From a virus: a stretch of 26,009 nucleotides of DNA. The stretch lies in IMG/VR virus record IMGVR_UViG_3300037882_001739, positions 1 through 26,009 of that record; one strand, written 5' to 3'. Numbering within the stretch: the stretch's first letter is position 1; every line of letters begins with the position of its first letter. Positions 1-22,790 of the stretch are shown here, in pieces. The translations under genes were made by a program, and so were the position numbers. The notes beneath the pieces are model-generated. The model was not told the DNA's origin. It did no database searches and worked only from the letters and a program-made list of their open reading frames with translations.

Positions 1-228
1 GCGTTGTCAGAAGTAGTCAGTTTGTTCTCTCTGTCTGAACTCATGGAAGAACTCTCCGAAGATGCCCGCAAGTTGGTAGAGTTGGCCATCTCCCCACCTG
101 CTACCGTGGCTTGTACAAAAGAATGCATTCCGAAGCGTATTAGTTTGATGGCAGCCGCCCGCCGTTTGTATGGATGGTCCAACGAACAGCTCGCAGAACT
201 CTGGGAAGAGATCGGTGACAGCCTGTGA
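1..228 (+). CDS. Hypothetical protein, 5' end probably outside the window
   Basis: The reading frame is open from the first base, so the gene probably starts upstream; the only start seen inside the window is TTG at 4, giving 74 residues. The protein is acidic and helical in character and ends in a short segment rich in Trp, Leu and Glu (LYGWSNEQLAELWEEIG). No family is recognised. Its TGA (226-228) overlaps the GTG start of the next gene, the same coupling seen throughout the window, which supports it being a real gene. An antisense frame over the same bases is judged a shadow. Confidence 0.55.
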   Translation, partial: ALSEVVSLFSLSELMEELSEDARKLVELAISPPATVACTKECIPKRISLMAAARRLYGWSNEQLAELWEEIGDSL

Positions 229-515
229 CACCAAGACAACGACAGAGTAAGAAGTGGGACAGTCTGGACAGTATTGTGTCCATGCTAACCATCACTGGTG
301 AAACACCAGAACTGAAAGCAAGAGCCCTTCTCGCAATGGGAAGGGCTCTGACGGACCATCAAAAACGACTGCTACAGGAGTACGACCTGTCCTACCATGC
401 AGCGTACAGAGAAGCAGCGGCACTGACAGCGTTGCAGGTGAAGTGCCACGAGTTAGAGTCCAAAGCAGAAGACGACGCCATCTGCGAACAGAGAAGGGTG
501 CAAAGTGAAGGTTAA
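225..515 (+). CDS. Hypothetical helical protein (96 aa)
   Basis: Starts at a GTG that overlaps the preceding TGA as GTGA. The product is charged and mostly helical, with long Ala/Leu/Glu/Lys stretches (about residues 30-85) and no Cys/His metal site or membrane segment. No family is recognised. Its 3' end (505-515) overlaps the start of a short frame that matches the N-terminus of the SNF2 helicase further downstream. So before the endonuclease insertion this gene was probably translationally coupled directly to that helicase. Confidence 0.6.
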   Translation: MTPRQRQSKKWDSLDSIVSMLTITGETPELKARALLAMGRALTDHQKRLLQEYDLSYHAAYREAAALTALQVKCHELESKAEDDAICEQRRVQSEG

Positions 516-585
516 AACAAAACCACTCCCACACCAAAGAAAGGGTGTAAAGCTCATCTCGAAGTTCAATGGCGATGTGCTATGA
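505..585 (+). pseudogene. Remnant 5' end of the SNF2 helicase gene (26 codons)
   Basis: From GTG 505 the frame encodes a 26-residue peptide containing PLPHQRKGVKLIS and FNGDVL, then TGA at 583-585. It matches 20 of 26 residues of the first 26 of the helicase that starts at 1070 (PLPHQREGVRLIS, FNGDAL). AGAAGG at 491-496 is a suitable ribosome binding site for GTG 505. The frame breaks just before the position of the helicase Walker A motif (DEMGLGKT), exactly where the endonuclease ATG (582) begins. At DNA level the two copies differ at many silent sites, so this is not a fresh tandem duplication. I read it as the original helicase start, cut off by the inserted endonuclease gene. Confidence 0.75.
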
Positions 586-1073
586 AAAGACCTTCGGTTA
601 AAAAGATCATGGCGTCTTTATTATACGAACCCGAAACGGGAATCCTTCTATGGAAGCGTACCAGAAAAGGAACTAGGGGTTTTCGCAAACCAGCGGGGAG
701 TTACTGTGACCGTGGATACCTGTATGTGACTATCAATGGTGTTAAGTATTCTGGTAGTCATTTAGTGTGGGTGTTGGCGAAAGGATGTTGGCCGGAAGAA
801 GAAATTGACCACAAAGACGGAAATCCCATGAACAACAGAATCGACAATTTAAGACCTGCCACACGTATTGTCAATTCACGGAACTTGAAACTATTCAAAA
901 ACAACACATCAGGTCATGCCGGTATCCAATACAAGATGTCTTCGAAACGGTGGCAAGTAAGAGCTGGGAAGTGCCACATTGGTGTGTATGATACATTAGA
1001 AGAGGCAATCAAAGCACGCAAAGCAGCAATCAAAAAATTGGGTTATCATTCAAATCATGGAAAGACAAGATGA
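582..1073 (+). CDS. HNH homing-type endonuclease with AP2 DNA-binding domain
   Basis: 163 residues. The N-terminal part (about 1-60) has the Y-x-P-E-T-G-x-L-x-W pattern common in phage HNH proteins. The HNH core lies near 75-100 (EIDHKDGNPMNNRIDNLR, then N-x-R-N), with the DH pair and trailing Asn/His-type ligands. The C-terminal 50 residues (SGHAGIQY, RWQVRAG, GVYDTLEEAIKARKAA) form an AP2-like DNA-binding domain. This domain pair is typical of free-standing selfish endonucleases in phages. It starts with ATGA overlapping the truncated helicase 5' copy and ends with ATGA overlapping the intact helicase start. It therefore sits between two versions of the helicase N-terminus without breaking the operon. 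Confidence 0.9.
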   Translation: MKRPSVKKIMASLLYEPETGILLWKRTRKGTRGFRKPAGSYCDRGYLYVTINGVKYSGSHLVWVLAKGCWPEEEIDHKDGNPMNNRIDNLRPATRIVNSRNLKLFKNNTSGHAGIQYKMSSKRWQVRAGKCHIGVYDTLEEAIKARKAAIKKLGYHSNHGKTR

Positions 1074-2416
1074 AAATAAAAACAGTGCCGTTACCACACC
1101 AACGCGAAGGCGTGCGGTTAATAAGTGCATTTAATGGCGATGCATTGTTGAGTGATGAAATGGGTCTGGGCAAGACCTACACATCTCTCTTGTGGATTGT
1201 GGAGAACGAACAGTGGCCGGTTGTCATCATCTGTCCGGCCGCGTTGAAGTACAACTGGCAACAGGAAATACGACAACACTTTGATAGTCCTTCTCTTGTT
1301 CTTGAAGGCCGGGACACATCCCACCAGAAGCGACACCTGCAAAGACACAAGTTCATCATTCTCAACTTCCAAATTTTGCAGGCTTGGCTTCCTCTTTTGC
1401 GGAAGCTGCGACCGACCACTCTAATTCTGGATGAGTGCCAAGCCATCTCCAACCGTACGTCGCAAGCGTACCACAACTTCGCTTCTATCAGGAAACGATC
1501 ACATAACTTGCTCGCCCTGTCAGGAACACCATTGACCAACAAGGCGGCAGAACTCTGGCCTGTTCTCAACTTTCTCCGTCCAGACATATGGCCATCGTTT
1601 TGGACCTATGCTGTCGAGCATTGCGAGCCGCGGAGTGTTAATGGGAAGCTGGAGTACAACGGCTCACGCAATCTGGAAGTGCTGCATAAGAAGGCGAAGA
1701 AGTATTGCATGATTCGCCGACTGAAGAAAGACACCATTGTACTCCCACCAAAAGTGAGGCAAGTGGTGTCACTACCCTTCGAGGAAAACAGCGACTACCT
1801 GAAAGCGGAACGAGACTTTCAGGGGTGGTACAAGAGGAACAAGGGACTGAGTGCATTTGTCAAGGCATCCAAGTCCCTATCCATTGTGAAGGTCAATCAC
1901 TACAGACAACTATGCGTTGAAGCCAAACTGCCATCAATCCTCAAATGGGTGGAGAACTTTCTATCAGAGAGCGATGATAAGTTGGTTCTCATGTTCTCCC
2001 ACACCGATCCAATTCATCAGGTAATGAAAAAGTTCGGCAAGATAGCAGTCAAAATCAATGGCGAGATTACGGGACGGAAGCGTCAGGACGCAGTAGATCG
2101 CTTCAAAAAAGATCCACGGTGTCGCCTAGCGGTGTGCAACACGGTTGCAGCGGGAGTCGGACTGACACTGACTGTTGCTCATCATCTTGCGTTTTGTGAG
2201 TTCCCTTGGACACCGGGTGGGGTGAAGCAGGCGGAAGACCGTGTTCACCGTATGACACAAGAGGAAACATCATTCATCTACTACTTGGTAGCAAAGGGCA
2301 GCATCGAGGGCAAGATTGCGAAACTCATTGCAAAGAAAGACGACACCCTCAATACTGTGCTGGATGATGGAAAGAACGAACGTTGGCAAGTGGCCTCTAT
2401 GATGAAGGATATGTGA
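1070..2416 (+). CDS. SNF2-family DEAD/DEAH-like helicase
   Basis: 448 residues, superfamily 2 Snf2-like ATPase. Visible motifs: Q-like N-terminus (PLPHQREGVRL), Walker A DEMGLGKT at 29-36, motif Ia around VVIICPAALKYNWQQE, Walker B LILDECQ (118-124), motif III LALSGTPLTN (148-157), and a second RecA lobe with CNTVAAGVGLTLT and FPWTPGGVKQAEDRVHR (motifs V and VI). The length fits the compact phage versions that lack long insertions. These enzymes act in phage replication, repair or recombination; the exact role is not visible here. The start codon at 1070 follows GGAAAG (1059-1064) and overlaps the endonuclease stop. The first 26 codons duplicate an upstream fragment at 505-582. The TGA (2414-2416) overlaps the next ATG. 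Confidence 0.93.
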   Translation: MKIKTVPLPHQREGVRLISAFNGDALLSDEMGLGKTYTSLLWIVENEQWPVVIICPAALKYNWQQEIRQHFDSPSLVLEGRDTSHQKRHLQRHKFIILNFQILQAWLPLLRKLRPTTLILDECQAISNRTSQAYHNFASIRKRSHNLLALSGTPLTNKAAELWPVLNFLRPDIWPSFWTYAVEHCEPRSVNGKLEYNGSRNLEVLHKKAKKYCMIRRLKKDTIVLPPKVRQVVSLPFEENSDYLKAERDFQGWYKRNKGLSAFVKASKSLSIVKVNHYRQLCVEAKLPSILKWVENFLSESDDKLVLMFSHTDPIHQVMKKFGKIAVKINGEITGRKRQDAVDRFKKDPRCRLAVCNTVAAGVGLTLTVAHHLAFCEFPWTPGGVKQAEDRVHRMTQEETSFIYYLVAKGSIEGKIAKLIAKKDDTLNTVLDDGKNERWQVASMMKDM

Positions 2417-2595
2417 TGACTGCTGCATTCCCAAACGGATATATTTTGTTCATGTTGGCTTTTGGTTTGTGGTTCATCGTTGACGTAATTATTGCCATCA
2501 AAACGGCAAGAACCATCCTCGACGAACACGAACGGGTAAAGAACAAGCCCCCCTTCATTGCCCCGGAAAATGACGAAGAAAGTTGCTCAGTATGA
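2416..2595 (+). CDS. Small membrane protein (59 aa)
   Basis: ATG 2416 overlaps the helicase stop as TGATG, which I prefer to an upstream in-frame TTG. One hydrophobic helix spans about residues 7-28 (YILFMLAFGLWFIVDVIIAI), followed by a charged cytoplasmic-type tail rich in Arg, Lys, Glu and Asp. No family is recognised. Its stop overlaps the primase start (ATGA at 2592-2595). A single-span protein within the replication operon might anchor replication proteins to the membrane, but nothing in the sequence proves this. Confidence 0.6.
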   Translation: MTAAFPNGYILFMLAFGLWFIVDVIIAIKTARTILDEHERVKNKPPFIAPENDEESCSV

Positions 2596-3491
2596 GAGGC
2601 GAAATGGATTTCATTGCGTTCTGTGAAAAGTACAGAATTGAGTATAGGACCAGCGGGAACCACACGCGAAGAGGTTGGGTGCAAATACACTGTCCCTATT
2701 GTGGCGGGGGCAACGACAGCTTTCATATGGGGTTCTGTCTGAGTTGGCCTCGCGTATCGTGCTGGAAGTGTGGCAAGCATCCACTTCTCCAAACACTGAA
2801 AATGGTGGCACGAGAGACAGACGCCAATCTGCATACCATCATCAACAAGTTCCCGCGAGAACGAGTTGTCGAGAAAGAGGAAGTCACAGGGGTTCTGAAT
2901 CTGCCAAAAGGACTTGCCCCTATGAAACGTTGCCACAGAGAATACCTTAGGGAGCGGCGTTTCAATCCCGACACCATTGAACGGGTGTGGGGTGTGAAAG
3001 GTCTTGGTCTTGACGGTCAATGCAAAACATCGAGAGGTATGGTCAATCTGGCATGGAGGCTTTTCATTCCAATAGAATCAAAAGGAGTTGTGTCGAGTTG
3101 GACAACGAGATCTATTGCGGACAACGCATCTATTCGGTATATCTCGGCGGGTAAAGAACACGAACGGATTAGTCATAAGGAATTGTTGTACGGTGAAGAC
3201 TATGCAGGAACCACAATCATCATTGTCGAAGGCCCAACCAAAGCATGGAGAATTGGACCGGGAACTGTCTGTACGTTTGGGACAAGGCCGACGCCCGCTC
3301 AAATTGTACGAATGGGAAGGTACGCTAAGAGATATGTTTTGTTTGACCACGGGGCAGAGCGTTACAGTCAATCTCTTGTCCAGCAACTGTCAGGGTTCGG
3401 CGGAGAAACCTACAGCATAGAGATTGACGCTGCCGATCCAGATGACATGTCCAAAAAAGAACTACGTCAAGTAAGGGGGTTGTTGCAATGA
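2592..3491 (+). CDS. DNA primase with N-terminal zinc finger and TOPRIM domain
   Basis: 299 residues. The N-terminus carries a CHC2-like zinc site: HCPYCGG (Cys34, Cys37) and CWKC (Cys57, Cys60), typical of primases that read template DNA. The C-terminal half contains a TOPRIM-like core: IIIVEGPTKAW with the catalytic Glu near 213, VLFDHGAE (249-256) in place of the usual D-x-D strand, and DPDD at 282-285. It lacks a fused helicase domain, and a DnaB-like helicase is encoded separately at 5887. I chose ATG 2592 over TTG 2583 because it overlaps the previous stop as ATGA. It should make RNA primers for lagging-strand synthesis. Confidence 0.85.
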   Translation: MRGEMDFIAFCEKYRIEYRTSGNHTRRGWVQIHCPYCGGGNDSFHMGFCLSWPRVSCWKCGKHPLLQTLKMVARETDANLHTIINKFPRERVVEKEEVTGVLNLPKGLAPMKRCHREYLRERRFNPDTIERVWGVKGLGLDGQCKTSRGMVNLAWRLFIPIESKGVVSSWTTRSIADNASIRYISAGKEHERISHKELLYGEDYAGTTIIIVEGPTKAWRIGPGTVCTFGTRPTPAQIVRMGRYAKRYVLFDHGAERYSQSLVQQLSGFGGETYSIEIDAADPDDMSKKELRQVRGLLQ

Positions 3492-4135
3492 CCATGAGTA
3501 CCAGAGACTTTGGTGGTTTGAACTACGGGGTAGTTGTTCCCCGCCAGATGAAAGAACGTGAATGTCTTCTGCACAACATGCGAAATGCGATTGCATCAAA
3601 CATGGACAGCGACAAGGAAGCATTCGAAAAAGCCGACATGCAAGTACTAGAACAAACATATGAACTGGTACTCTCCGGGGCTATCACTTATCAAGGAGAG
3701 GGGTTCTTTGCAGGTCATGGGTATTTGTTCCACATCGACGGAGACCCTTGTGTGTTGCTTCCGGGTGTATTTCCCTCGATACGCATTTCACATGCTGTCT
3801 CCAATCTGGGTCCGAACTTACAGCGAAGCTTGGCACGCATGAACGAAGCATTTGCTTCACTGGCAAGAAACTCGACACAACTGCCGAAAAAACGAAGGTG
3901 TTTGCCGAAGCGGCGGAACGCATGGAACCCACAGAAACCGAGCCAGTCTCGGCCTTCCAGTGGGTGTTCTGGTTCTAGGGGTGGTTGTCGTCCTGCTTTT
4001 GCTTACCCATGCCGCCATTTAAGGAGCCGGGGGCTTTATTCGGGGTTGCAAGGCGGACGCAAGACAGTACAATGGCCCAACACCAGCAAACCATTTTCAA
4101 TCGTAGGGGATCTCGCACATCCAAGACGATACTAA
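3488..4135 (+). CDS. Unknown protein, probably frame-shifted near its 3' end
   Basis: Starts with ATGA over the primase stop. About residues 1-135 look like normal protein (for example FFAGHGYLFHIDGDPCVLLPG) and then end at QLPKK. After the A6 run at 3887-3892 the same frame becomes Arg/Ser/Pro/Gly-rich, like an out-of-frame translation, up to TAA 4133-4135. One base back (-1), the sequence continues sensibly as TKVFAEAAERMEPTETEP and stops at 3976-3978. A further -1 frame (3960-4022) reads as a strongly hydrophobic helix, VLVLGVVVVLLLL. Either the ribosome slips at A6, or the gene is decayed, or the assembly has an indel. No family is recognised. Confidence 0.5.
   Translation: MTMSTRDFGGLNYGVVVPRQMKERECLLHNMRNAIASNMDSDKEAFEKADMQVLEQTYELVLSGAITYQGEGFFAGHGYLFHIDGDPCVLLPGVFPSIRISHAVSNLGPNLQRSLARMNEAFASLARNSTQLPKKRRCLPKRRNAWNPQKPSQSRPSSGCSGSRGGCRPAFAYPCRHLRSRGLYSGLQGGRKTVQWPNTSKPFSIVGDLAHPRRY
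3960..4022 (+). other. Orphan transmembrane-like reading frame
   Basis: In the third frame, GTG 3960 to TAA 4020-4022 encodes a 20-residue hydrophobic helix (VGVLVLGVVVVLLLLTHAAI). No ribosome binding site or ATG is in frame upstream. It lies directly behind the -1 frame end of the preceding gene, so it may be the C-terminal membrane anchor of that protein after a second frame change. It could also be chance. Confidence 0.25.
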
Positions 4136-4574: not shown

Positions 4575-5890
4575 TGCCAGCAACACTGGAACAAGTGATA
4601 AACATACTCCCACGACTTCCGTCAGCAGTGATGTTGTATCGGATAATTGCAGAGTATGACGGCAAAAAGGGATTTCCTTGTGGACTGTCCGCTACGGAAA
4701 TGGGGTTCCTTTTGGGTGTTCGGATGAAACGCACGTCATACAGCGTTAAGTTAATTGAAAAAAACCTAAAAACACTTCGCAATGTGGGTTTAATTCAGAC
4801 GTGTATTTTGCAATGGAAAAGCAGGGACCTCCTGATCCCTACTGGACAGTTCGCAAAGGAACAAAAGACAATACACTTCGCAAGAGGTGGAGAAGTGGCA
4901 AATTTGCCGGTTATTCGCGTAAATCTGTCGATCTATTATGAAAAAAGAGACATACCTAAGGGAAGTAAATGGACCTTGATCCCTACTGAAAATGGGGAAT
5001 ATGTATTTATACTACATATAAATAATAACAAGAAGAGAATAAATTCTTTTCTGGGTGAGTTGAAAGAAGACGAAGTAAAAAGGATATCCAATATGATTGG
5101 GTTTCACGAAATCTTTTCAAAAAAAGAGAGCAACCCCATCTATGACGAAATGGCCCGTCGCTTTTACATAGTTGTCAGGAAGAAAGTAGTCGGCAAACGC
5201 ACTTCGCTAGCGAAGTGGTCTACCGAGTTGGAACGCATAGCGAACAGACATAAAGAACAATTCCCACTTGTGTTCGAGTGGCTTATGGAGAATATCCCAA
5301 AACAGGATTGGTTATGCCAAGCCGTCCAATCGCCATCGTCGATTGGAAAGAAGTGGGATAGGATAGTTGGCTGGATGGAACGAGACAAGCCAAAGAAGTC
5401 CAAGTACGAACTCCCAGAAGATTACGAAGACTACCGAGAAGCCATAGAGGGAGACATTGATCACTTCCGAAAGAAGTACGAAGACGTGATAGATATGGTA
5501 GTGTCCATTCACCCCAATCAAATGCAACGTGCCATCTATGACAGTTATCAGTTGATTAACAGGGTGATTGAGAGTTTGACCAACATCCCATACCCAAACC
5601 GTACAAAGATGTCAGAATGCGTTGGAAGTGTCCATCCCTATCTGGTGAGCGAGAAAACCTACAGGGTTCAGATGGGGATCAATCTGGAGCGACTTAGGGA
5701 ATGGTCGGAAACAGGATGGAAAGGTCACTTGTGTGGGAGGAACAACATAGCTCTCGTTCAGATAGATGATTGTGTGCAGGTGAGCAACCCAGCTAAAACC
5801 TACCTCACCAATCTGTTGAAGAAAACCACGGCAAGCCCTGCCATACGTGACAGGGTGTTTAACGACATAATAGGAGAAATTGAGACGTGA
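4574..5890 (+). CDS. Putative replication initiator or helicase loader, winged-helix N-terminus
   Basis: 438 residues from ATG 4574, which overlaps the previous TGA. Residues about 10-80 look like a winged helix (LSATEMGFLLGV as helix and turn, SVKLIEKNLKTLRNVGLIQ as recognition helix and wing), a fold used by phage and plasmid initiators. The remainder is long, charged and unrecognised. Its stop overlaps the helicase start as GTGA. It carries internal CACTTCGC repeats and an AT-rich block, as lambda O carries its origin. The initiator role is inferred from position, fold pattern and repeats; no signature motif proves it. The middle (about 4990-5060) has a base composition unlike its neighbours. 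Confidence 0.55.
   Translation: MPATLEQVINILPRLPSAVMLYRIIAEYDGKKGFPCGLSATEMGFLLGVRMKRTSYSVKLIEKNLKTLRNVGLIQTCILQWKSRDLLIPTGQFAKEQKTIHFARGGEVANLPVIRVNLSIYYEKRDIPKGSKWTLIPTENGEYVFILHINNNKKRINSFLGELKEDEVKRISNMIGFHEIFSKKESNPIYDEMARRFYIVVRKKVVGKRTSLAKWSTELERIANRHKEQFPLVFEWLMENIPKQDWLCQAVQSPSSIGKKWDRIVGWMERDKPKKSKYELPEDYEDYREAIEGDIDHFRKKYEDVIDMVVSIHPNQMQRAIYDSYQLINRVIESLTNIPYPNRTKMSECVGSVHPYLVSEKTYRVQMGINLERLREWSETGWKGHLCGRNNIALVQIDDCVQVSNPAKTYLTNLLKKTTASPAIRDRVFNDIIGEIET
5001..5050. other. AT-rich patch, candidate DNA unwinding element
   Basis: Only 8 of 50 bases are G or C, whereas flanking genes look close to balanced. It lies within the initiator-like gene between CACTTCGC copies at 4874 and 5200. 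It still encodes a plausible peptide (FILHINNNKKRINSFL), so it is coding as well. Confidence 0.4.
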
Positions 5891-10192: not shown

Positions 10193-10783
10193 ATGCAGAT
10201 CGAGAAACTCTATCACTTCCATGCGGCACACCGCAATGAGTTGCTACAGGACAAGTGCTTCAACGTTCATGGACACACCTATCATTTGAAGGCAGTGTTT
10301 GATGTTGTACGGGACCAAACCGACCCCAACATATCAGTCCTGTTCTCCAACTTCGATACAATCGAACAAATGTTGAAGGCCGACTGGGATCATGCTCTGT
10401 TAATGAATGTGGAAGATCCACTTCTCGCTTACTTGATGGCATTCACGCGAGACACTCAGCAAGCACTAAAAATTGTAGTTCTCCCCCGTGCAACATCCGT
10501 CGAGAATGTGTGCTACACGTTGTTCGGCATCATTACAAAGATGGGGTTCGGGCTTATCCGGCTGGAACTGAAAGAGACCACCACTTCAACCGTGTCCTAC
10601 ACCAAAGAGGATTGGGAGCGGGACACCGTGTTGTTTGATGAAGGTGTGAAGTGGTGCGAGTGTGTGTTTGTTGACAACGAACAACGATGTAGTGTTTGTG
10701 ACAGAACCAAATGGGAATTCAAACTAGCAAAGAGGAGACGAGGGCATGAACAATCAACCGAGAGAACCGCTAACGAACAGTGA
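10193..10783 (+). CDS. queD: QueD-like 6-carboxy-tetrahydropterin synthase
   Basis: 196 residues. The T-fold zinc ligands are visible as His13 (FHAAH) and His26/His28 (VHGHTYH), with the nucleophilic Cys22 four residues ahead of HGH, as in QueD. ATSVENVCYTLF matches the P-T-x-E-N substrate-binding stretch, and LELKETTTS carries the pterin-binding Glu. Family members turn dihydroneopterin triphosphate into 6-carboxy-tetrahydropterin, the second step to preQ0. The C-terminus is extended by about 50 residues and has four cysteines (CEC, RCSVCD), a possible extra metal site. It overlaps the next gene by 38 nt, in an operon with queE and folE. Confidence 0.85.
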   Translation: MQIEKLYHFHAAHRNELLQDKCFNVHGHTYHLKAVFDVVRDQTDPNISVLFSNFDTIEQMLKADWDHALLMNVEDPLLAYLMAFTRDTQQALKIVVLPRATSVENVCYTLFGIITKMGFGLIRLELKETTTSTVSYTKEDWERDTVLFDEGVKWCECVFVDNEQRCSVCDRTKWEFKLAKRRRGHEQSTERTANEQ

Positions 10784-11450
10784 TCCGAACGTACTGGACG
10801 TTCATTCCATCTTCCACACCATTCAGGGAGAAGGACCATTCACAGGACACCCAGCGGTGTTTGTTCGCTTGGCTGGATGCAACCTGCAATGTGCCAACTG
10901 CGACACCAACTACACAACGGGGCGTCGCATGATGACAATCGACGAAATTGTACAGCCCATTTTCGAAAGCGAGTCAAGACTTGTTGTGATCAGTGGCGGA
11001 GAGCCCTTCCGACAGAACTTCTCAGGACTTGTTGAAGTTCTCCAAAAACAAGGGTATACCGTTCAAATTGAATCAAACGGAACGATCTGCCCCGATTGGG
11101 TTGGTTACTTTGCAGATGACCACCACCCCAACAGAAATTTACATTTTGTGATCTGTCCGAAGACAGCCCAAATTCATCGTGGGTGGTTGCAAGTTGATCC
11201 GAGCATCGTGTCATATAAGTATGTCATGAATGCAGAACATGTCTCTGATGCCGATGGACTTCCCCTGTCCGTACTTGGCCAAAACGTACGACCATTCCGT
11301 CCAGCGAAAAGTGACCGCATTTATCTTCAACCAGAAGACAACCTCGACACTGCGATCAACGGACTCAACGTTGACGCCTGTATTGCGTCATGTCTGAAGT
11401 TCAATTACATTTTGTGTCTGCAAGTTCACAAAATCGTGCAGCTTCCGTAA
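10746..11450 (+). CDS. queE: QueE-like 7-carboxy-7-deazaguanine synthase (radical SAM)
   Basis: 234 residues. The N-terminus has the QueE signature HTIQGEGPFTG followed by the iron-sulfur motif C-x3-C-x2-C (Cys45, Cys49, Cys52 in GCNLQCANCD), consistent with the shortened cluster loop of QueE. VISGGEP is the SAM-binding GGEP motif, and QIESNGT follows. The enzyme rearranges carboxy-tetrahydropterin to 7-carboxy-7-deazaguanine. The ATG at 10746 lies inside the 3' end of the queD-like gene, with GGAGACGAGG just upstream. Confidence 0.9.
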   Translation: MNNQPREPLTNSDPNVLDVHSIFHTIQGEGPFTGHPAVFVRLAGCNLQCANCDTNYTTGRRMMTIDEIVQPIFESESRLVVISGGEPFRQNFSGLVEVLQKQGYTVQIESNGTICPDWVGYFADDHHPNRNLHFVICPKTAQIHRGWLQVDPSIVSYKYVMNAEHVSDADGLPLSVLGQNVRPFRPAKSDRIYLQPEDNLDTAINGLNVDACIASCLKFNYILCLQVHKIVQLP

Positions 11451-12259
11451 AAGCCCTGTCGCAGCGACAATTACCCACAACCTTAAAACCACTACCCCCG
11501 GAACCGAAACAACGGAGCCGGGCAACCAGAAAGCCCCATATGTGCACGGAAGACACTTCCGAAGATATACCAGAAGCCCGAGATCCCTTTATCCGTGATG
11601 GTATCCCCGAAGATGCAACGCCAGAAGAACAGGCTCGCATATTGATGGGCTTCACTGAGACAGATCCGCGGACTTCACCAAAGTGGACCATCGTCGAACA
11701 GGCCGAGGAACAGGGACTCGACCGAGCTATCCGTCACATGATTACTTTGGTCGGCGACGACCCTGAACGAGAAGGGTTGCTGGACACACCAGACCGAGTT
11801 ATTCGTTCATGGCGAGAGTTATACGCCGGATACGACACAGACGTCGGCTTGTTGTTTACGCAGTTCGATTCCGAAGAATACTCAGAGATGATTATTCTTG
11901 AAGGCATCGAATTTCAATCCATGTGCGAACACCACATGTTGCCTTTCTACGGGCAAGCATGGGTCGCCTACATTCCCAATGAGAAAGTTGTGGGTATCAG
12001 TAAACTGGTTCGAGTCGTAGAGGCGTTCTCGAAGCGACTCCAGAATCAAGAACGCATTACGTCACAAGTCACGGAAGCGTTGGAAACATATTTGAAGCCG
12101 TTGGGTGCGGCGTGTGTGCTAAAGGGACACCACATGTGTATGGGGTGTCGGGGTGTGCGTCAGCCTTCTACGGTAATGACCACATCTTCTTTAACAGGTG
12201 CGTTCAAGGCGGACGCACAAACACGGAACGAATTTCTCTCCTTCGTTAACAAAGGGTAG
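11390..12259 (+). CDS. folE: GTP cyclohydrolase I (FolE type)
   Basis: The core of about residues 100-289 matches FolE: SMCEHHMLPFYGQAWVAYIP with zinc ligands Cys179 and His182, GISKLVRVVEAFSKRLQNQE, and HHMCMGCRGV with Cys250. The enzyme opens GTP to dihydroneopterin triphosphate, the first step of the 7-deazaguanine path, feeding the queD-like enzyme. The N-terminal 100 residues are an unrecognised Pro/Arg/Glu-rich extension. The start is uncertain: ATG 11390 overlaps the queE-like gene by 61 nt and lacks a good binding site; ATG 11540 (239 aa) and ATG 11645 (204 aa) are alternatives. The stop is 2 nt from the next ATG. Confidence 0.9.
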   Translation: MSEVQLHFVSASSQNRAASVKALSQRQLPTTLKPLPPEPKQRSRATRKPHMCTEDTSEDIPEARDPFIRDGIPEDATPEEQARILMGFTETDPRTSPKWTIVEQAEEQGLDRAIRHMITLVGDDPEREGLLDTPDRVIRSWRELYAGYDTDVGLLFTQFDSEEYSEMIILEGIEFQSMCEHHMLPFYGQAWVAYIPNEKVVGISKLVRVVEAFSKRLQNQERITSQVTEALETYLKPLGAACVLKGHHMCMGCRGVRQPSTVMTTSSLTGAFKADAQTRNEFLSFVNKG

Positions 12260-12261
12260 TC

Positions 12262-13185
12262 ATGCCGAAGTCAACATCTGTTGTAATGCGGTTTCAGTTT
12301 GAAGGGTGGCACAAGTGGGGAGCCGCCCCTCACGAACATCGTTACTTGCGATACCCCCACCGTCACATGTTCCAAGTGGAAGCCCGCAAGGAAGTGGATC
12401 ACGAAGAACGCCAAATCGAGATCATTGCCTTCAAACGAGAAATGGAAACGTGGGCGAGTCGCGAGTACGGAATTGGATCAGTCACTGACGAAGACGATTG
12501 CACCGACTTCAATACTTGCTCCGATGACAGTTGCGAAACCATCGCAAGGAAGTTGTGCGAACGGTTTGGTCTGTGGGCTGCAACCGTTATGGAAGACGGA
12601 GAGAACGGGGCAGAGTGCCTGGACTATGATGACATGTCCTCTCTGGCTATCGATGACGTCGTCCCTTCCAAAGCGACAAACCGACGATTCCCCGCCACAA
12701 TCTTCAAAGGAACAGAAGCCGAAGGCCCGCACCGGGGGATTGAGACCATCTTCGTTCCGGGGGATACCCCACAGGAAGAAGTGTTGGAGATGCTCGACGC
12801 TATTTCGGGAAAAGACCCGTATCAGCTTCGCAACATTTACTTTGGTGCGGACAACCGACCGTGCGAAAACCTTCAATCCGTGATTGCTGTGATTGAGAAA
12901 GCAAGAGTACGCTTCCTATCACGGTTTAACTTTATCTGGGTTGAATTGCGTCGATGGAAGGAGGAGTACTACATCCCATGTCCATTGGAAGGTCTTATGT
13001 TCTGTGTCGTATGTCCGAAGACAGAAGAAGACCGGACAGTCATCCCTGATGGACCCCATGTGTTCTTCAAAGAGGTGACGGCGACCAACATCGTCTGGAC
13101 TTTGGCAAACGACGACTGCGGCGAAAGCTGGGCTACCCCTACCAATGACCCGTTGTTCGAACAAGACGCTAAACTCCACTACTAA
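12262..13185 (+). CDS. Divergent QueD-like protein with unknown C-terminal domain
   Basis: 307 residues. The first 130 resemble a 6-pyruvoyl-tetrahydropterin synthase fold: His17 (FEGWHKW) and His33/His35 (YPHRHMF) occupy the zinc-ligand positions, SCETIARKLCERF corresponds to the S-E-x-L-A helix, and VMEDGENGAE to the pterin-binding Glu. HGH has become HRH, and no Cys precedes it, so the usual nucleophile is missing and the chemistry must differ. Residues about 150-307 form a second domain, unrecognised, that contains GIETIFVPGDTPQEEVLEML and CPLEGLMFCVVCPK. It lies between folE and a glycosyltransferase gene and may carry out a later step on the deazaguanine. Confidence 0.6.
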   Translation: MPKSTSVVMRFQFEGWHKWGAAPHEHRYLRYPHRHMFQVEARKEVDHEERQIEIIAFKREMETWASREYGIGSVTDEDDCTDFNTCSDDSCETIARKLCERFGLWAATVMEDGENGAECLDYDDMSSLAIDDVVPSKATNRRFPATIFKGTEAEGPHRGIETIFVPGDTPQEEVLEMLDAISGKDPYQLRNIYFGADNRPCENLQSVIAVIEKARVRFLSRFNFIWVELRRWKEEYYIPCPLEGLMFCVVCPKTEEDRTVIPDGPHVFFKEVTATNIVWTLANDDCGESWATPTNDPLFEQDAKLHY

Positions 13186-13196
13186 GGAAATCGGCT

Positions 13197-14366
13197 GTGA
13201 ACAACCTTACCCCGACAGGACGACGTCTCTTCTACGTCCCTTTGGAACCACTACAGGGTCGCTATACAGAACAGCTCTCAAGAGCCAACACCGGCTGGAA
13301 TGAGCGGAACTGGAAAGCAGCACAGATCCCGTACGTTCGCATAGAGGGGCCAAACCCAACAGTGGAAGCGTCTCTTGCCGGGGGAAAGGTTATCAACACG
13401 GTACGACGTTGTGAGTGGGCGTTTGCTCAGACGTCAAAACTTGTACAGATGATTGCTGACGGAACTATAACGTCCTCTGACGCGATTTACTTCGACGACT
13501 TCTGGCACCCCGGTCTTGAAATGATCGGGCAGGCCATTGCTGAGGCACAGTGCCCCCCGTCTTTGTATAGTTTTTGTCACGCTCAATCTGTGGACATGTT
13601 TGACTTCATGTGGGACAGAAGACGATGGGCTTCTCACATCGAACATGGGTTTGCCCGCCTGTACGACAGAGTGTTTGTGAACAACGACACTCTGGCTGAA
13701 TTATTGCATGTGAGATACGACAACGCATATGTCGTCAACTGCGGTCATCCTTTTTCCACAGAAGAAGTGGTATCCACTGTCCCACTGAACTACCTCATCC
13801 CCAATTCAAAAAGCAACACGGTTGTGTTCAGTTCGAGGTTTGACCGCGAAAAGCAACCCCACCTATTCATGGACATCGTAGAAGCCACACTCAAAAAGAG
13901 CAGCAACATCAAATTTGTTGTGTGCAGCGGCGGACCCCTGCGGAGCGATGACGACTCCGCAGTGTCACGAGCAATTGAGATGGGCCTTCAGGGGAAACTG
14001 ACACTTGCGACCAACCTGACAAAAGCGGCGTATTACAAATGGTTGAAGCACGCAAAACTTCAACTGTCCACCAGTCTTCAGGATTGGGTGAGCTATTCCT
14101 TACTTGAAGCCCTCTCGTTCGGTTGTTATCCTGTCTATCCAAACTACCGATCATTTCCAGAAGTGTTTGGTCCCTATGCCAATCATCTGTATCCTTTCCA
14201 CCCCACTATGGACAGAGGGTATATTGTCAATGACGTGTCAAACCGAATCATCAATCTGTGCAAACACGAAACAATACAGATGAAGGACGCCATCGCTGAT
14301 TACGTTTTGGGGCACCACAACATGACGTGGGCTCGGATGGCAGTTGAAATGGATCTTCTAGTATGA
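13197..14366 (+). CDS. GT-B fold glycosyltransferase
   Basis: 389 residues from GTG 13197, preceded by AAGGAAA. The C-terminal half shows a GT4/GT1-like nucleotide-sugar-binding domain: VVFSSRFDREKQPHLFMD (about 209-226), IKFVVCSGGP, then SYSLLEALSFG and YRSFPEVFG, with the two glutamates (304 and 322) in the E-x-n-E arrangement typical of GT4 enzymes. The N-terminal half (HPGLEMI, YSFCHAQSVD) would bind the acceptor. It sits between the second QueD-like gene and the DpdA-like gene and overlaps the latter (ATGA). That points to glycosylation of a deazaguanine nucleotide or of phage DNA, which is an inference. Confidence 0.75.
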   Translation: MNNLTPTGRRLFYVPLEPLQGRYTEQLSRANTGWNERNWKAAQIPYVRIEGPNPTVEASLAGGKVINTVRRCEWAFAQTSKLVQMIADGTITSSDAIYFDDFWHPGLEMIGQAIAEAQCPPSLYSFCHAQSVDMFDFMWDRRRWASHIEHGFARLYDRVFVNNDTLAELLHVRYDNAYVVNCGHPFSTEEVVSTVPLNYLIPNSKSNTVVFSSRFDREKQPHLFMDIVEATLKKSSNIKFVVCSGGPLRSDDDSAVSRAIEMGLQGKLTLATNLTKAAYYKWLKHAKLQLSTSLQDWVSYSLLEALSFGCYPVYPNYRSFPEVFGPYANHLYPFHPTMDRGYIVNDVSNRIINLCKHETIQMKDAIADYVLGHHNMTWARMAVEMDLLV

Positions 14367-15388
14367 CAGCTACTCCAATATACCCAACGAAGACCCGCGA
14401 GACAAAGACGGAACGGGCAGAAGAACGTATCAACGAGTTCTTCCTAGACTCCGGGGCTCACTCTCTGTACAACAAGTACGTTGGGCATCATGGTTCCATT
14501 GGAGAAGAAATCAAAGCCCACATGGACGCAATGACTCCGATGGAACGGTTTGCCATCAGACGTCAAATGCCCACGACCTTCAAAAAGAAGCGTACAACAT
14601 CCTATGAGTTCTATGACACGCAAGAGTTCTGGGACTACGTTGACACCTACTGCCAGTTCATCATCGACTACAAACACGCAATCGACTACTATGCGACTGT
14701 TGACGTGTTGTTCCACCCAAAGAAGAGCTGGCGTGTTTTGAAGTATATGGAAAAGGAATGGGGACTCAACCCGGTTCCTGTTATCCACTTCAATACGGAC
14801 ATTAGGTGGGTAGAGAAGCACCTCGATGCTGGGTATGACTACATCGGTATCGGGGGGCTCGGACAGGAGATTACGAAACAGAACTACTTCGCGTGGGCTG
14901 ACCCTGTCTTCAAGATGCTCTGTGACTCCAACGGAATGCCACTAGTCAAAACCCACGGGTTTGCAATGACAGCACACGAGTTGCTTGTTCGCTATCCGTG
15001 GTATAGTGTTGACTCCGCATCGTGGGCAAAGGCTGGTGCGTTCGGTCGTCTTTATATCCCGCGACAAACGAAGGGGCACTACAACTTCCTTGCATCTCCC
15101 TACACTCTAAATGTTAGTTGCGAATCTCCAACCAAGCACAAAAAGGGACGCAACTTTTCCACCATGAGTAACGAAGAGCAGCGGGTGGTTCGCAACTGGC
15201 TGGAGTTGATCGACGTCCCTCTTGGCAAGAATGACAGAGAGGGCAAGAGAGTTGAGAAGGGGGTTATCAACTATCACGGAAGTCGCAAGATTGCAAACCT
15301 CAAGTTCTACGAAGCAATGATTGCCAGTTTGCCCGATTGGCCTTGGCCGTTCAAAGAGGGGGTAAAGAAAGTGCGAGGTTTCCATTAA
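14363..15388 (+). CDS. dpdA: DpdA/TGT-like transglycosylase for 7-deazaguanine insertion
   Basis: 341 residues. The pattern matches phage DpdA and queuine tRNA-ribosyltransferase relatives: FFLDSGAHS (Asp29), YYATVDVLFHPK, PVPVIHFNTDIRWV, the glycine-rich GYDYIGIGGLGQ, KTHGFAMTAHELLVRYPW and YSVDSASWAKAGAFGRLYIP (Asp217). Two conserved Asp residues (29 and 217) are candidate catalytic residues of the barrel. The C-terminal zinc cluster of bacterial TGT is not seen, as in phage forms. DpdA exchanges guanine for preQ0-type bases in DNA. ATG 14363 overlaps the glycosyltransferase stop. Confidence 0.8.
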   Translation: MTATPIYPTKTRETKTERAEERINEFFLDSGAHSLYNKYVGHHGSIGEEIKAHMDAMTPMERFAIRRQMPTTFKKKRTTSYEFYDTQEFWDYVDTYCQFIIDYKHAIDYYATVDVLFHPKKSWRVLKYMEKEWGLNPVPVIHFNTDIRWVEKHLDAGYDYIGIGGLGQEITKQNYFAWADPVFKMLCDSNGMPLVKTHGFAMTAHELLVRYPWYSVDSASWAKAGAFGRLYIPRQTKGHYNFLASPYTLNVSCESPTKHKKGRNFSTMSNEEQRVVRNWLELIDVPLGKNDREGKRVEKGVINYHGSRKIANLKFYEAMIASLPDWPWPFKEGVKKVRGFH

Positions 15389-16624: not shown

Positions 16625-17863
16625 ATGTCTGGTTTCTTCCCGGAAGGGGTGTTCAAAACATCCCGTGAGTTCTCGAACACAAGCCGATGCGGTGCTTGTG
16701 GTCTGTACAAGAAGTGTGCCAACCCTAAACTCTCCCCGCAAGGGGACGGACACAAGAAAATACTGATCGTACTTCCACCCATCACGGAAAGGGAAGACGC
16801 CACAGGAAGATTCTTGCGGTCATCTATGGGGGAAACGGTCAAGACGGTTTTGAAGCAGAATGGCATAAGTCCGATGGACGACTGCCATTTTACTTCTGCC
16901 ATCATCTGCGGAACCGAAGCACCGACCAACGAGCAAATCGATCACTGCTCTTTCAAGCTGAAGAGTACTATCGAAGACCTCCAGCCAAACGTGGTCATAC
17001 CAATTGGTCCAGCAGCAATTCGTTCCATCATCCAGTTCACATGGAAAAAGTCTGCCGGTCTGTATGAACGATGGTGTGGGTATCAAATACCAGCACAAAC
17101 CATCAACTCGTGGGTGTGTCCGACTTACGTTCCATATGGTGATGATACCAACCTCACACCGTTCTTCATGGAACGCCACATCAGCGACGCACTTGAACTG
17201 TGTGACGCCCCGCCGTGGCAAACAATCCCCAACTACCAAGACCGCATTGAACTGATATGGTCGGAACGCAAACTTGAGAAGGTTTTGTCGCGGTGGATAA
17301 ACAAGCCCTTCGTCGCTGGTTTCGATTATGAAACGGTCTGCCTGAAACCGGACAAATCCAACGCACGGATTGTTAGCGGCTCCTTATCTTTCAACGGTCG
17401 GGAAACTTACGCCTTTCCGTGGTTTAGCAATGCGCCGGGCCTGCTGAAAGCCCTTTCCCGAAACCCTCGGGGGGCTTTCATTGGTTCGAACATGAAATAC
17501 GAAGAACGGTGGTCAAAAGCCGTCCTAGGGTTCACGATTCGTAATTGGGTGTGGGATACCATGCTCGCTGCTCATGCGATCGACAACCGGGGTGGTGCAG
17601 ACGATGAGACAAGGTCTAATGGTGGCGGGGGTTTGAGCAGTGTGAAGTTTCAGGCTTTCGTCTTGCTGGGACAGCCAATATATGACGACCACTTGAAAGA
17701 ATACTTGAAGGGCAACGGAAGCTACGGATTGAATTCGATCAAAGAAATCCCAATGAAGGATTTGCTCCTCTACAACGGAATGGACAGCCTTCTCTGCTAC
17801 CTTGTGGCAAAGGAACAAATGCGTCGAATGGGACATCCTCTTTTGAAAAGACTGAAAGTATGA
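16625..17863 (+). CDS. Uracil-DNA-glycosylase-like domain fused to 3'-5' exonuclease
   Basis: 412 residues. Residues about 20-190 resemble a family 4-type UDG: Cys22, Cys25 and Cys31 (RCGACGLYKKC), then EREDATGRFLRSSMGE in place of the G-E-x-P-G loop region, and NVVIPIGPAAIRSI. From about 225 a DnaQ-like exonuclease follows: AGFDYETVC with the D-x-E pair, IGSNMKYEERW, WDTMLAAHAID, and YNGMD with the Y-x3-D catalytic pattern. In SPO1-type phages these domains are fused to a family A polymerase; here the polymerase is separate, at 18020. It would give proofreading and perhaps recognition of uracil or a modified base. AGAGAG precedes ATG 16625. Confidence 0.78.
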   Translation: MSGFFPEGVFKTSREFSNTSRCGACGLYKKCANPKLSPQGDGHKKILIVLPPITEREDATGRFLRSSMGETVKTVLKQNGISPMDDCHFTSAIICGTEAPTNEQIDHCSFKLKSTIEDLQPNVVIPIGPAAIRSIIQFTWKKSAGLYERWCGYQIPAQTINSWVCPTYVPYGDDTNLTPFFMERHISDALELCDAPPWQTIPNYQDRIELIWSERKLEKVLSRWINKPFVAGFDYETVCLKPDKSNARIVSGSLSFNGRETYAFPWFSNAPGLLKALSRNPRGAFIGSNMKYEERWSKAVLGFTIRNWVWDTMLAAHAIDNRGGADDETRSNGGGGLSSVKFQAFVLLGQPIYDDHLKEYLKGNGSYGLNSIKEIPMKDLLLYNGMDSLLCYLVAKEQMRRMGHPLLKRLKV

Positions 17864-18027
17864 TCGATCCATCACTAGATCAAATGGCCGCTCAACTTCG
17901 AGAAGTGTTCCCCGCCATGTGGTGGGCTTTGTACAGTGGCATGTTAGAAAAAGGATTCACAGCAGAACAATCTCTCGATCTGCTGAAAACATACATCTCA
18001 ACTGCGTACAGGCCCAAACATGAGTAA
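17860..18027 (+). CDS. Small acidic helical protein (55 aa)
   Basis: ATG 17860 overlaps the exonuclease stop (ATGA), and the frame ends at TAA 18025-18027, 8 nt inside the polymerase gene. It is shorter than 60 codons and easily missed. The pattern AMWWALYSGMLEKGFTAEQSLDLLKTYI is like small phage proteins with W-A-L-Y-x-G-x2-E-x-G-F-T-x-E-Q-A that accompany replication genes; function unknown. Coupling on both sides supports a real gene. Confidence 0.7.
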   Translation: MIDPSLDQMAAQLREVFPAMWWALYSGMLEKGFTAEQSLDLLKTYISTAYRPKHE

Positions 18028-19402
18028 GTGTAGTTCACCCGAAGCCTACCAACTTCTCCATGACGGTTCTCTTGCCCTTGCACAAGTAGAGCATAACGGC
18101 ATACGAATTGACGTAGACTACTTGAAACGCACGCGAATCGCCATTCAGCAAGACTGCAAGGAAAAAGAAGCATGGATGCGACAGCACCCCTATTGGAAAA
18201 TATGGCGAAAGCGTTTCGGCCAAAAGGCAGCACTCAGCAGCAGTGACCAGCTCGCCCACGTCTTGTTCAAGGAACTCAACTACGAAGTCACCGGCTTAAC
18301 CAAAAAGGGGAAAGCCAGCACAGACAGAACAGCCCTTGAGAAAATTGACGACCCTTTCGTTCGTGCTTACACCGAGTGGGCGGAACTGATGAAAGCCGAT
18401 GGGACGTTTCTGTCGGGCATTGAACGAGAGACCATTGACTCCATCCTACACCCCATCTTTAACCTTCACATTGTAAAGACGTTTCGCAGTAGTTCCGAGG
18501 CACCCAACTTCCAGAACTTGCCAGTTCGTAATGGGAAGATAAGTAAACTCGTGCGATCTTGTTTCATCCCTCGACCGGGACGTCGTTTGGTGGAAATCGA
18601 CTACGGTGGTATTGAAGTCAAGGTGGCGGCTTGTTACCACCAAGACCCCACAATGCTGACCTACATTCACGACCCCACAAAAGACATGCATCGTGACATG
18701 GCGGCCGAGATTTACAAATGCGATCCGTCCAACGTAAACAAGATGTTGCGATATGTGGCGAAGAACCGCTACGTCTTCCCAGAGTTCTACGGATCATACT
18801 GGGCGAGAGTTGCTCCCGATCTGTGGGGTGCAATTGAGTTGTTCAAAATGACCATCGACAAGGGGGACAAACAAATTCCCGTTGCAAAGTGGTTGGCCAA
18901 GAGGGGTATTGAGGAACTTGGCGATGAGCACGACTCCAACTCGTTCATGTACCACATCAAGAAAGTAGAAGCCAACTTCTGGGGCAAGCGATTCCCTGTT
19001 TATGACGAGTGGCGTAAGAAATGGTACAAAGAATATTTGAGAACTGGTGGATACCGCACACTGACTGGATTCTACATTGAAGGCATCTACAAAAAGAACG
19101 ACGTTATCAACCACCCTGTACAGGGAAGTGCTTTCCATTGTCTGCTGTGGTCCCTGATTGAAATACAGAAGGAACTGAAACAGCGGAGAATGAAGACAAA
19201 GGTTGTTGGTCAGATTCATGACAGTATTGTTGGTGACGTAGTTGAGAAAGAGTACGATAGGTACTTACGCATCTGCAAAGAGATCATGACGGAACGGATT
19301 CGAGAAGAGTGGGACTGGTTGATTGTCCCGCTCGAAATTGAAGCGGAAGCGGGCGAAGTTGATCAATCTTGGTTCGAGAAAAAGAAAGTAGAGTTGAACT
19401 AA
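18020..19402 (+). CDS. Family A DNA polymerase, polymerase domain only
   Basis: 460 residues. Motif A is VEIDYGGIEVKVAA (191-204, Asp194; DYGG replaces the usual DYSQ), motif B is RYVAKNRYVFPEFYGS (244-259) and motif C is QIHDSIVGD (398-406, Asp401). SSEAPNFQNLP (159-169) and NHPVQGSAFH (364-373) are also typical. No exonuclease domain is present in this protein; it lies in the gene at 16625. About 190 residues precede motif A, corresponding to the thumb and early palm. The main replicative polymerase of this phage is therefore likely a two-chain enzyme. ATG 18020 overlaps the previous gene's end; the stop overlaps the next ATG. Confidence 0.92.
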   Translation: MSKCSSPEAYQLLHDGSLALAQVEHNGIRIDVDYLKRTRIAIQQDCKEKEAWMRQHPYWKIWRKRFGQKAALSSSDQLAHVLFKELNYEVTGLTKKGKASTDRTALEKIDDPFVRAYTEWAELMKADGTFLSGIERETIDSILHPIFNLHIVKTFRSSSEAPNFQNLPVRNGKISKLVRSCFIPRPGRRLVEIDYGGIEVKVAACYHQDPTMLTYIHDPTKDMHRDMAAEIYKCDPSNVNKMLRYVAKNRYVFPEFYGSYWARVAPDLWGAIELFKMTIDKGDKQIPVAKWLAKRGIEELGDEHDSNSFMYHIKKVEANFWGKRFPVYDEWRKKWYKEYLRTGGYRTLTGFYIEGIYKKNDVINHPVQGSAFHCLLWSLIEIQKELKQRRMKTKVVGQIHDSIVGDVVEKEYDRYLRICKEIMTERIREEWDWLIVPLEIEAEAGEVDQSWFEKKKVELN

Positions 19403-21421: not shown

Positions 21422-21615
21422 CCTTGCAGTTCTGGTTGTTTGTATTGGTCACACCCCTAATCACATACCTGAATTTTCGCTACGGTGTGTACGGTCTGCT
21501 TTGTGGGCAGGCTAAATTTCATGCGAAGGAAAAGAGGAGCCGAAATGGCATCGAAGAAAGACCGGGTCAAGAAAAAACAACGGTTGTCGTCAGCACAACG
21601 GGCAGCCACTCATAA
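21418..21615 (+). CDS. Possible small membrane protein (65 aa)
   Basis: ATG 21418 overlaps the preceding stop. The first 35 residues contain a hydrophobic helix (LQFWLFVLVTPLITYLNF) and the remainder is charged. The last 71 nt overlap the SSB gene in another frame, which lowers confidence in the tail. The coupled start and membrane helix are the support; no family is recognised. Confidence 0.45.
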   Translation: MTLQFWLFVLVTPLITYLNFRYGVYGLLCGQAKFHAKEKRSRNGIEERPGQEKTTVVVSTTGSHS

Positions 21616-22618
21616 CGTGGGACGTGACTTTGCTGCAATGGTGATCCCGAAAGGGCTCAACCTTATCCGCATCAAAGAGGACTGCAAGAAGAGTTGGTCC
21701 ATTGTTCCGTTCACCGCTACGGACAAGAACCCACTGGCTGTGAAGTACGAACTTGTGGGCGAGCCATACTTCGAGCGAACCTATTGGGTTCATGGACAGG
21801 TCGGACCTAACAACGACTCCTACGCATGTCCAGCTCGCAATACAGCCCACCTGCCAGCCAAGCGACGGGAGAAGTGCCCTATCTGCGAAGAGTGGGCTCG
21901 GCTTGCCAAGGGGCAGGACGTTGACGAGGATCTGTTGAAGTCGCTGCTCCCAAAAGAGCGACAGCTTTGGTTGATCTACGACCATGCGGACACTGAGAAG
22001 GGTGTCCAACTGTTCGAAGCATCGTACCACGGACTGGGCAAGGATTTGGACGAAGCTGTTCGCAGTGACATGTCCGAAGAAGAACCGGAAGGCTTCGAAT
22101 ACTTCGCAGACACGGAGGAAGGGTATGTCCTTCGTATTATGTTCAAGGAAATGAAAACGGGGGGTCGTGGGAAGTGGTATCCGCCTTCTCGTATCGACTT
22201 CAAGCCGCGTGCCAAGCCACTACCTGACGAGATCGTTGACCACGGAATTAAGGTTGACGACATCATCAAAGTGCTGTCGTACAAGGAACTTGCCGAGATC
22301 TTCCTGCAAGAAGTCGCAGAAGACGAAGACGACGAAAAGCCAAGGAAGAAAGACAAGAAACCGTCCGATGACGATGATGATGACGATGACGAGGAAGAAC
22401 CTTCCCCACGGAAGAAGTCATCCAAGAAACGTCCACTAGTGGACGATGACGATGATGATGATGACGATGAGGAAGAAGAACCCCCTCGAAAAAAGTCATC
22501 GAAGACGAAGACTACGCAAAAGAAGTCTTCAGATGACGATGATGATGACGATGACGATGATGATGACGATGATGACGATGATGACGATGACGTTCCTCGT
22601 CGCAAGAAAAAGAAATAG
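21545..22618 (+). CDS. Single-stranded DNA-binding protein with zinc site and poly-Asp blocks
   Basis: 357 residues from ATG 21545, preceded by GAGGAG (21535-21540); an upstream frame start is not used. The core of about residues 20-250 resembles T4 gp32-like phage SSBs: a region with CPARN and CPICEEW (three Cys plus nearby His, a zinc-finger pattern), then LWLIYDHADTEKGVQLFEAS and FKEMKTGGRGKWYPPSRIDF. The C-terminus has three Asp runs (8, 9 and 20 residues) separated by Lys/Ser-rich segments, and ends with RRKKKK. SSBs normally end in an acidic tail that recruits partners; here acidic blocks alternate with basic ones. A short hairpin terminator follows. Confidence 0.75.
   Translation: MASKKDRVKKKQRLSSAQRAATHNVGRDFAAMVIPKGLNLIRIKEDCKKSWSIVPFTATDKNPLAVKYELVGEPYFERTYWVHGQVGPNNDSYACPARNTAHLPAKRREKCPICEEWARLAKGQDVDEDLLKSLLPKERQLWLIYDHADTEKGVQLFEASYHGLGKDLDEAVRSDMSEEEPEGFEYFADTEEGYVLRIMFKEMKTGGRGKWYPPSRIDFKPRAKPLPDEIVDHGIKVDDIIKVLSYKELAEIFLQEVAEDEDDEKPRKKDKKPSDDDDDDDDEEEPSPRKKSSKKRPLVDDDDDDDDDEEEEPPRKKSSKTKTTQKKSSDDDDDDDDDDDDDDDDDDDDVPRRKKKK
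22367..22591 (+). repeat. GAY codon microsatellites in the SSB gene
   Basis: Runs of GAT/GAC triplets at 22367-22390 (8 codons), 22442-22468 (9) and 22532-22591 (20). The two codons are mixed irregularly, and triplet slippage may change the length. The antisense frame reads as poly-Ser and is a by-product. Confidence 0.9.
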
Positions 22619-22634
22619 GGCGAAAGCCCTTTCC
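22617..22634 (+). terminator. Short terminator after the SSB gene
   Basis: AGGGC-GAAA-GCCCT, a 5-bp stem with a GNRA-type loop starting in the stop codon, followed by TTCC. The U-tract is poor, so termination may be partial. Confidence 0.5.
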
Positions 22635-22637
22635 TAT

Positions 22638-22748
22638 ACTCAAGTAAGCGGTTCAGACGGGTAACCGGATGGATGGCTGGGAAGGCTGCATAAAAGCCTA
22701 TTGCGAGCATCATAGTGCGAGTACCACAAAAGCCCTTGAGTCCTTTTT
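22638..22748 (+). other. Gene-free spacer with possible branched RNA
   Basis: ACTCAAG (22638-22644) is complementary to CTTGAGT (22735-22741), which is followed by TTTTT at 22744-22748. Inside are two small hairpins (CGGTT 22649-22653 with AACCG 22663-22667; AGGCT 22683-22687 with AGCCT 22695-22699). The shape, a closing stem plus U-tract, recalls 7433-7530 but is weaker. No gene is seen between 22619 and 22790. Confidence 0.35.
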
Positions 22749-22790
22749 GTCTGTTCCCTTTCTGTTTCAATTGAACTGGAGTTTTGTGTT

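Follow-up and report, generated by a model that had tools for sequence, protein, structure and literature searches.

A phage HNH homing-type gene that appears to have brought a replacement 5' end for the helicase gene it interrupts

The locus described here raises the question of how a homing-type endonuclease gene can lie within the start of a helicase gene and leave that gene intact. It is found in IMG/VR virus record IMGVR_UViG_3300037882_001739, a linear fragment (26 kb) from an uncultured virus, and the whole stretch that was analysed (26,009 nucleotides) is referred to below as the window.

Two helicase 5' ends around an HNH gene

The features of the locus, including those assigned by the interpretation developed below, are as follows.

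225-515, + strand: upstream ORF of 96 residues, its 3' end overlapping the putative native helicase start by 11 nt
490-498, + strand: Shine-Dalgarno-like sequence AGAGAAGGG, serving the start of the relic and 6 nt before its GTG
505-585, + strand: relic, the putative native helicase 5' end (26 codons from a GTG start, TGA overlapping the HNH start)
582-1073, + strand: intact HNH_3 homing-type endonuclease gene (163 residues, phrog_99), with the HNH motif near 804-860
583-1147, + strand: putative mobile unit, about 565 bp long and comprising the endonuclease and a substitute gene end, drawn from copy spacing and codon-usage boundaries
1070-1147, + strand: replacement helicase 5' end, codons 1-26, recoded and apparently foreign
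1070-2416, + strand: complete SNF2-type helicase gene (448 residues), probably a chimera in which the replacement 5' end precedes the native body
1148-2416, + strand: putative native helicase body, from codon 27

The helicase gene in use is considered complete because it carries both an SNF2 domain (Pfam, E 4e-34) and a Helicase_C domain. The first copy of its N-terminus (505-582) reads VKVKTKPLPHQRKGVKLISKFNGDVL and is followed by TGA, and the second (1070-1147) reads MKIKTVPLPHQREGVRLISAFNGDAL and runs on into LSDEMGLGKT. The two agree at 19 of 26 residues literally, or at 20 when the initial GTG is taken as Met. The BLOSUM62 score of the duplicate is 105, whereas nothing else in the six frames of the window scores above 27, which confirms the duplication claimed by the first-pass annotation. 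The many silent differences that it noted are also present: only 46 of 78 bases are equal (59%), the longest exact match is 10 nt, and a comparison by codon gives 8 identical, 11 synonymous differences and 6 residue changes, the start codons also being different. The break was placed just ahead of the Walker A motif, and the first copy indeed ends where LSDEMGLGKT would begin, nine codons short of the Walker A lysine. The endonuclease gene lies exactly between the copies, as first described, with an ATGA at each side: at 582-585 the HNH start overlaps the relic stop, and at 1070-1073 the helicase start overlaps the HNH stop.

The endonuclease contains an HNH_3 domain (PF13392, E 1.1e-11) and matches phrog_99 over residues 3-162 (E 2e-54), and this domain and full-length match place it among the phage HNH_3 homing-type endonucleases. 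In its C-terminal part it can be aligned to the AP2-like region of relatives, the alignment extending end to end; Pfam AP2 gave no match in the window protein and a sub-threshold match in relatives L316 and L180. The gene has its own start and stop, is fused to neither part of the helicase, and sits inside the native helicase boundary. The 96-residue ORF upstream has no Pfam or PHROG match.

Several other features of the window are worth recording. At 24256-24477 a Cys-rich domain (CKCNG...SCGC) lies in frame ahead of a 5'-3' exonuclease and matches part of phrog_374 (E 2e-9); it may be what remains of a further endonuclease gene that became joined to the start of the exonuclease. ORFs resembling QueD, QueE, FolE and perhaps DpdA, located at 10193-15388, suggest DNA modified with 7-deazaguanine, with only PTPS (QueD) confirmed by Pfam and no Pfam match for the ORF at 14363. 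The family A DNA polymerase appears to be split into two genes (16625-19402), both of which match phrog_17 at different profile positions, and very long aspartate runs occur at 22300-23180, in ORFs 21485-22618 and 22791-23183.

Probable native and foreign sequence at the helicase start

No DNA-level similarity of the window to phage records was found, and the helicase used as a single query gave no relatives in viral contigs. Relatives were gathered by profile scans of viral contigs using helicase and primase alignments. These identified a phage family sharing the gene order helicase, primase, DnaB-like helicase. The N-terminus is covered in 169 distinct helicases, 165 of which have at least 200 nt of upstream sequence. 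Within 900 nt upstream of the helicase, these 165 contain neither a related HNH gene nor a second copy of the N-terminus (best score 35, compared to 66 for the window). The gene is thus uninterrupted in its relatives, and the pattern that the first-pass annotation had named as counter-evidence, both 5' copies in relatives lacking the endonuclease, is absent from all 165.

The closest relative, L411/L412, has the same gene order, with 46% identity in the helicase, 45% in the primase and 52.5% in the DnaB-like helicase. An ORF of 74 residues lies upstream, there is no insert, and the sequence starts directly at the helicase, which begins MKWKSLTKPLPHQVEGFHLIEKFRGTVLIGDEMGLGKS. L411 matches the copy at 505 in 15 of 22 residues and 40 of 66 bases, and the copy at 1070 in 13 of 22 and 33 of 66. 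This favours the 505 copy as the native 5' end by a small margin, in line with the expectation that relatives without the HNH gene would have a single end of the 505 type. Since the closest such helicase is only 46% identical, the assignment depends on this small margin and on codon usage over 26 codons.

It is worth adding that two of the SNF2 helicase relatives contain an intein-like C-terminal sequence (VLTHN|T in L011 at 601-680 and VITHN|T in L044 at 4001-4090), positioned exactly ahead of the T in Walker A GKT. The Walker A region of these helicases therefore seems to be a repeated target of mobile elements. In a further relative, L015, the helicase frame is broken by one stop codon (4996-5050). 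Guernseyvirinae loci with an HNH gene beside a helicase were considered as a precedent and rejected, there being no duplicated end.

Codon usage was scored against the core genes of the window, for 27 gene starts and 6494 scored windows. Helicase codons 2-26 (1070-1147) have a z of -3.46, the lowest of the 27 gene starts, and the segment is within the lowest 0.5% of the 6494. The HNH start is second lowest (z -2.92), all remaining gene starts being at -1.7 or above. The 505 copy (z -1.4) and helicase codons 27-52 (z +0.8) are both ordinary. Because codon usage shifts at codon 26/27, the supplied 5' end is seemingly part of the mobile unit, and the simplest reading is that 583-1147 is one foreign unit of about 565 bp, consisting of the endonuclease and the recoded 5' end. 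The earlier proposal that a replacement 5' end keeps the helicase intact without splicing is supported.

A 3' counterpart and recurrence beside other HNH genes

A second case comes from Sulfitobacter phage EE36phi1, whose ORF8, named in the genome paper merely as an additional endonuclease (PMC2784036), is an HNH gene after RNAP1 that is present only in EE36phi1 and not in the close relative DSS3phi2. The RNAP1 genes of the two phages are about 90% identical up to nt 660, and then agree at only 36 of 60 and 44 of 60 bases, the divergent stretch being just about 120 nt. After the HNH gene there is a 19-codon relic that is identical to the native 3' end of DSS3phi2 at 54 of 57 positions (95%), compared to 42 of 57 for the RNAP1 end in use. 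It follows that the foreign end arrived with the HNH gene and that the native end is the relic. At a 3' end, then, the two phages provide proof from an empty site that is independent of the window.

Flanks on either side of related HNH genes were compared with each other in protein space, first for 134 viral and phage loci and then for 209 that also took in bacterial genomes and the window, with a score of at least 55 taken as strong. Duplication of a flanking gene end reached this score in 9 of the 209 HNH genes, the window included, a count that is not an unbiased frequency because these genes, all of one family, were chosen by similarity to two duplication-bearing HNH proteins. Among 3000 mismatched flank-pair controls none reached 55, the maximum being 52. 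Five strong cases are at the 5' end: the window helicase and genes for a primase zinc ribbon (L316), a P22-like portal (L313), an integrase (L342) and a DUF968 protein (L364). Four are at the 3' end: RNAP1 of EE36phi1 (L010) and genes for a Pam3 gp33-like protein (L180), a lambda-family portal (L403) and NinG (L387). Three borderline cases look the same as these by eye, namely L340 (RuvC-like), L201 (NinB-like) and L338. The architecture occurs in phage and prophage genes and in bacterial genome assemblies.

In all 12 cases, strong and borderline, the copies are recoded, with a base identity of 51-74% and a longest exact run of 5-16 nt. The HNH frame is fused to the relic start in L316, L313 and L364, and in the borderline L340 and L201, so that the endonuclease has captured the host start codon; the window differs from the fused frames in that the HNH gene is joined to the relic by ATGA coupling. 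In L180, and in L338 among the borderline cases, the C-terminus of the HNH protein continues into the 3' end of the relic. The GC content of the replacement end is below that of relic and body, and like that of its own HNH gene, in L316, L313 and L342, and is not lower in L364 and L340 (two of the other 5' cases, of which five were examined).

These comparisons bear on how the apparently foreign end came to be there. One alternative is that the HNH gene homed into an intergenic site and, by recombination with a related phage, was co-converted together with a long foreign 5' part of the helicase, in which case the boundary would lie deeper in the helicase and there would be no compact unit. Free-standing enzymes of T4 do cut at sites distant from the gene that encodes them, with co-conversion of the flanks (PMC2988022), and HNH genes are often near essential genes (PMC10448857). 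However, codon usage is normal again by helicase codons 27-52, the divergent stretch in EE36phi1 is short, and in seven of the nine strong cases the copies are spaced by 565-584 nt, as a compact unit predicts. We consider this alternative unlikely. A tandem duplication of the native 5' end on HNH insertion, followed by divergence of the copies, would account for the near-identical peptide encoded by both, but it is the selected copy in use that has the odd codon usage and the relic that is ordinary, and in EE36phi1 it is again the relic that resembles the HNH-less relative and the copy in use that is foreign; it is very improbable.

It is harder still to credit a splicing element, either a group I or II intron or an intein, with the 505 copy as exon 1 and codon 26 joined to codon 27. 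The intein-like sequences in L011 and L044 and one true Tremella intron with an N-terminal duplication (PMC7315562) lend it some plausibility. Against it, there is no space outside coding sequence, the HNH gene occupies a different frame and has a start and a stop of its own, and nothing is missing from the downstream helicase. Positions 1-3000 of the window gave no Rfam match at E<=1, and hence no group I or II catalytic RNA structure was found there; an intein is rejected for lack of an in-frame fusion to both host parts. Equally implausible is an assembly chimera of two strains, conceivable for a linear fragment from a metagenome, since identical runs shared by the copies reach 10 bases at most, too few for reads to be misjoined, the junctions are exact ATGA overlaps, and the same architecture exists in cultured EE36phi1 and in bacterial genome assemblies.

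Proposed mechanism and relation to known systems

We conclude that a free-standing HNH gene, together with recoded helicase codons 1-26, was very probably inserted between native codons 26 and 27. This reading, drawn from comparison of sequences, is based on the intact HNH gene, the intact helicase, the truncated native copy, the relatives with a single end, the shift in codon usage and the recurrence elsewhere. The endonuclease is predicted to cut an uninterrupted helicase gene near codon 26/27, as intron enzymes do, and repair of the break would copy the endonuclease and the foreign 5' end as one unit, with the relic serving as left homology arm and the helicase body as right. The carrier would be immune, its target site being divided by the insertion and not rebuilt by the recoded end. 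The low base identity of the copies may in addition hinder deletion by recombination. In translation, the relic, with its native ribosome-binding site and start, would supply the endonuclease with ribosomes through ATGA coupling, and from the endonuclease they would be handed on to the helicase at the second ATGA. The duplex energies of the ribosome sites fit this route, being -5.6 for the relic Shine-Dalgarno (the strongest), -3.3 for the helicase ATG at 1070 and -1.9 for the HNH ATG.

The arrangement would work like the mORF elements of fungal mitochondria, known with C-terminal gene hybrids from Allomyces macrogynus atp6 and from Glomus atp6, atp9, cox2 and nad3 (PMC3630166). Those elements are mitochondrial, use LAGLIDADG or GIY-YIG enzymes and affect 3' ends, whereas the window has a phage gene, an HNH_3 enzyme and a 5' end. 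The features of an mORF are nevertheless found: a host gene end duplicated at either side of the endonuclease ORF (in the window and the survey), an uninterrupted gene in relatives, and a foreign inserted end with a native relic, seen directly in EE36phi1 and indirectly in the window, through codon usage and L411. The fungal comparison made by the first-pass annotation is apt, and 5' versions exist there too: Tremella mitochondrial insertions have N-terminal duplications, and it is proposed for them, as for the window, that the native 5' end is replaced by a foreign one, but they are described as introns, one being a real intron confirmed by cDNA (PMC7315562).

Among phages, ORF8 of EE36phi1 is the mirror image, with an HNH gene, a foreign RNAP1 3' end and a native relic, differing from the window in the end affected. 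Intronless homing in T4 (Seg, Mob) resembles the window in its free-standing endonuclease genes, and nrdA/mobE in a start/stop overlap similar to the ATGA coupling. There the endonuclease genes lie between genes and cut at a distance, or a gene is split into two working parts (mobE in Aeh1 nrdA), and the review mentions no substitute gene end (PMC2988022). The free-standing HNN-AP2 genes of Xanthomonas oryzae phages encode a related type of enzyme, but their authors saw no conserved flanks and proposed sequence-independent spread (PMC2248197). Duplications beside HNH genes in Xop411 were rejected as a precedent, as they turn out to be tail-fibre domain duplications. The strategy has already been described in fungal mitochondria. 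In the open-access literature, with its phage reviews and surveys (PMC2988022, PMC10448857, PMC12724721, PMC2248197), we found no description of duplicated gene ends beside endonuclease genes and no earlier phage report.

Phages probably carry recurring compact homing elements, each an endonuclease gene with a recoded 5' or 3' end of its target gene, which invade important genes without splicing. In many of them the endonuclease would use the start of the host gene (start capture) or its 3' end, and the elements would replace the ends of helicase, primase, portal, integrase, RNA polymerase and recombination genes. Bringing along a spare end would add to introns and inteins a third means by which a homing gene can reside inside an essential phage gene, and one that recurs in phages and prophages at both gene ends. 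Such insertions would account for conserved phage genes that diverge abruptly at their ends, and for wrong start calls and short orphan ORFs beside HNH genes. EE36phi1 and DSS3phi2 offer simple bacterial systems for testing how homing enzymes spread without splicing.
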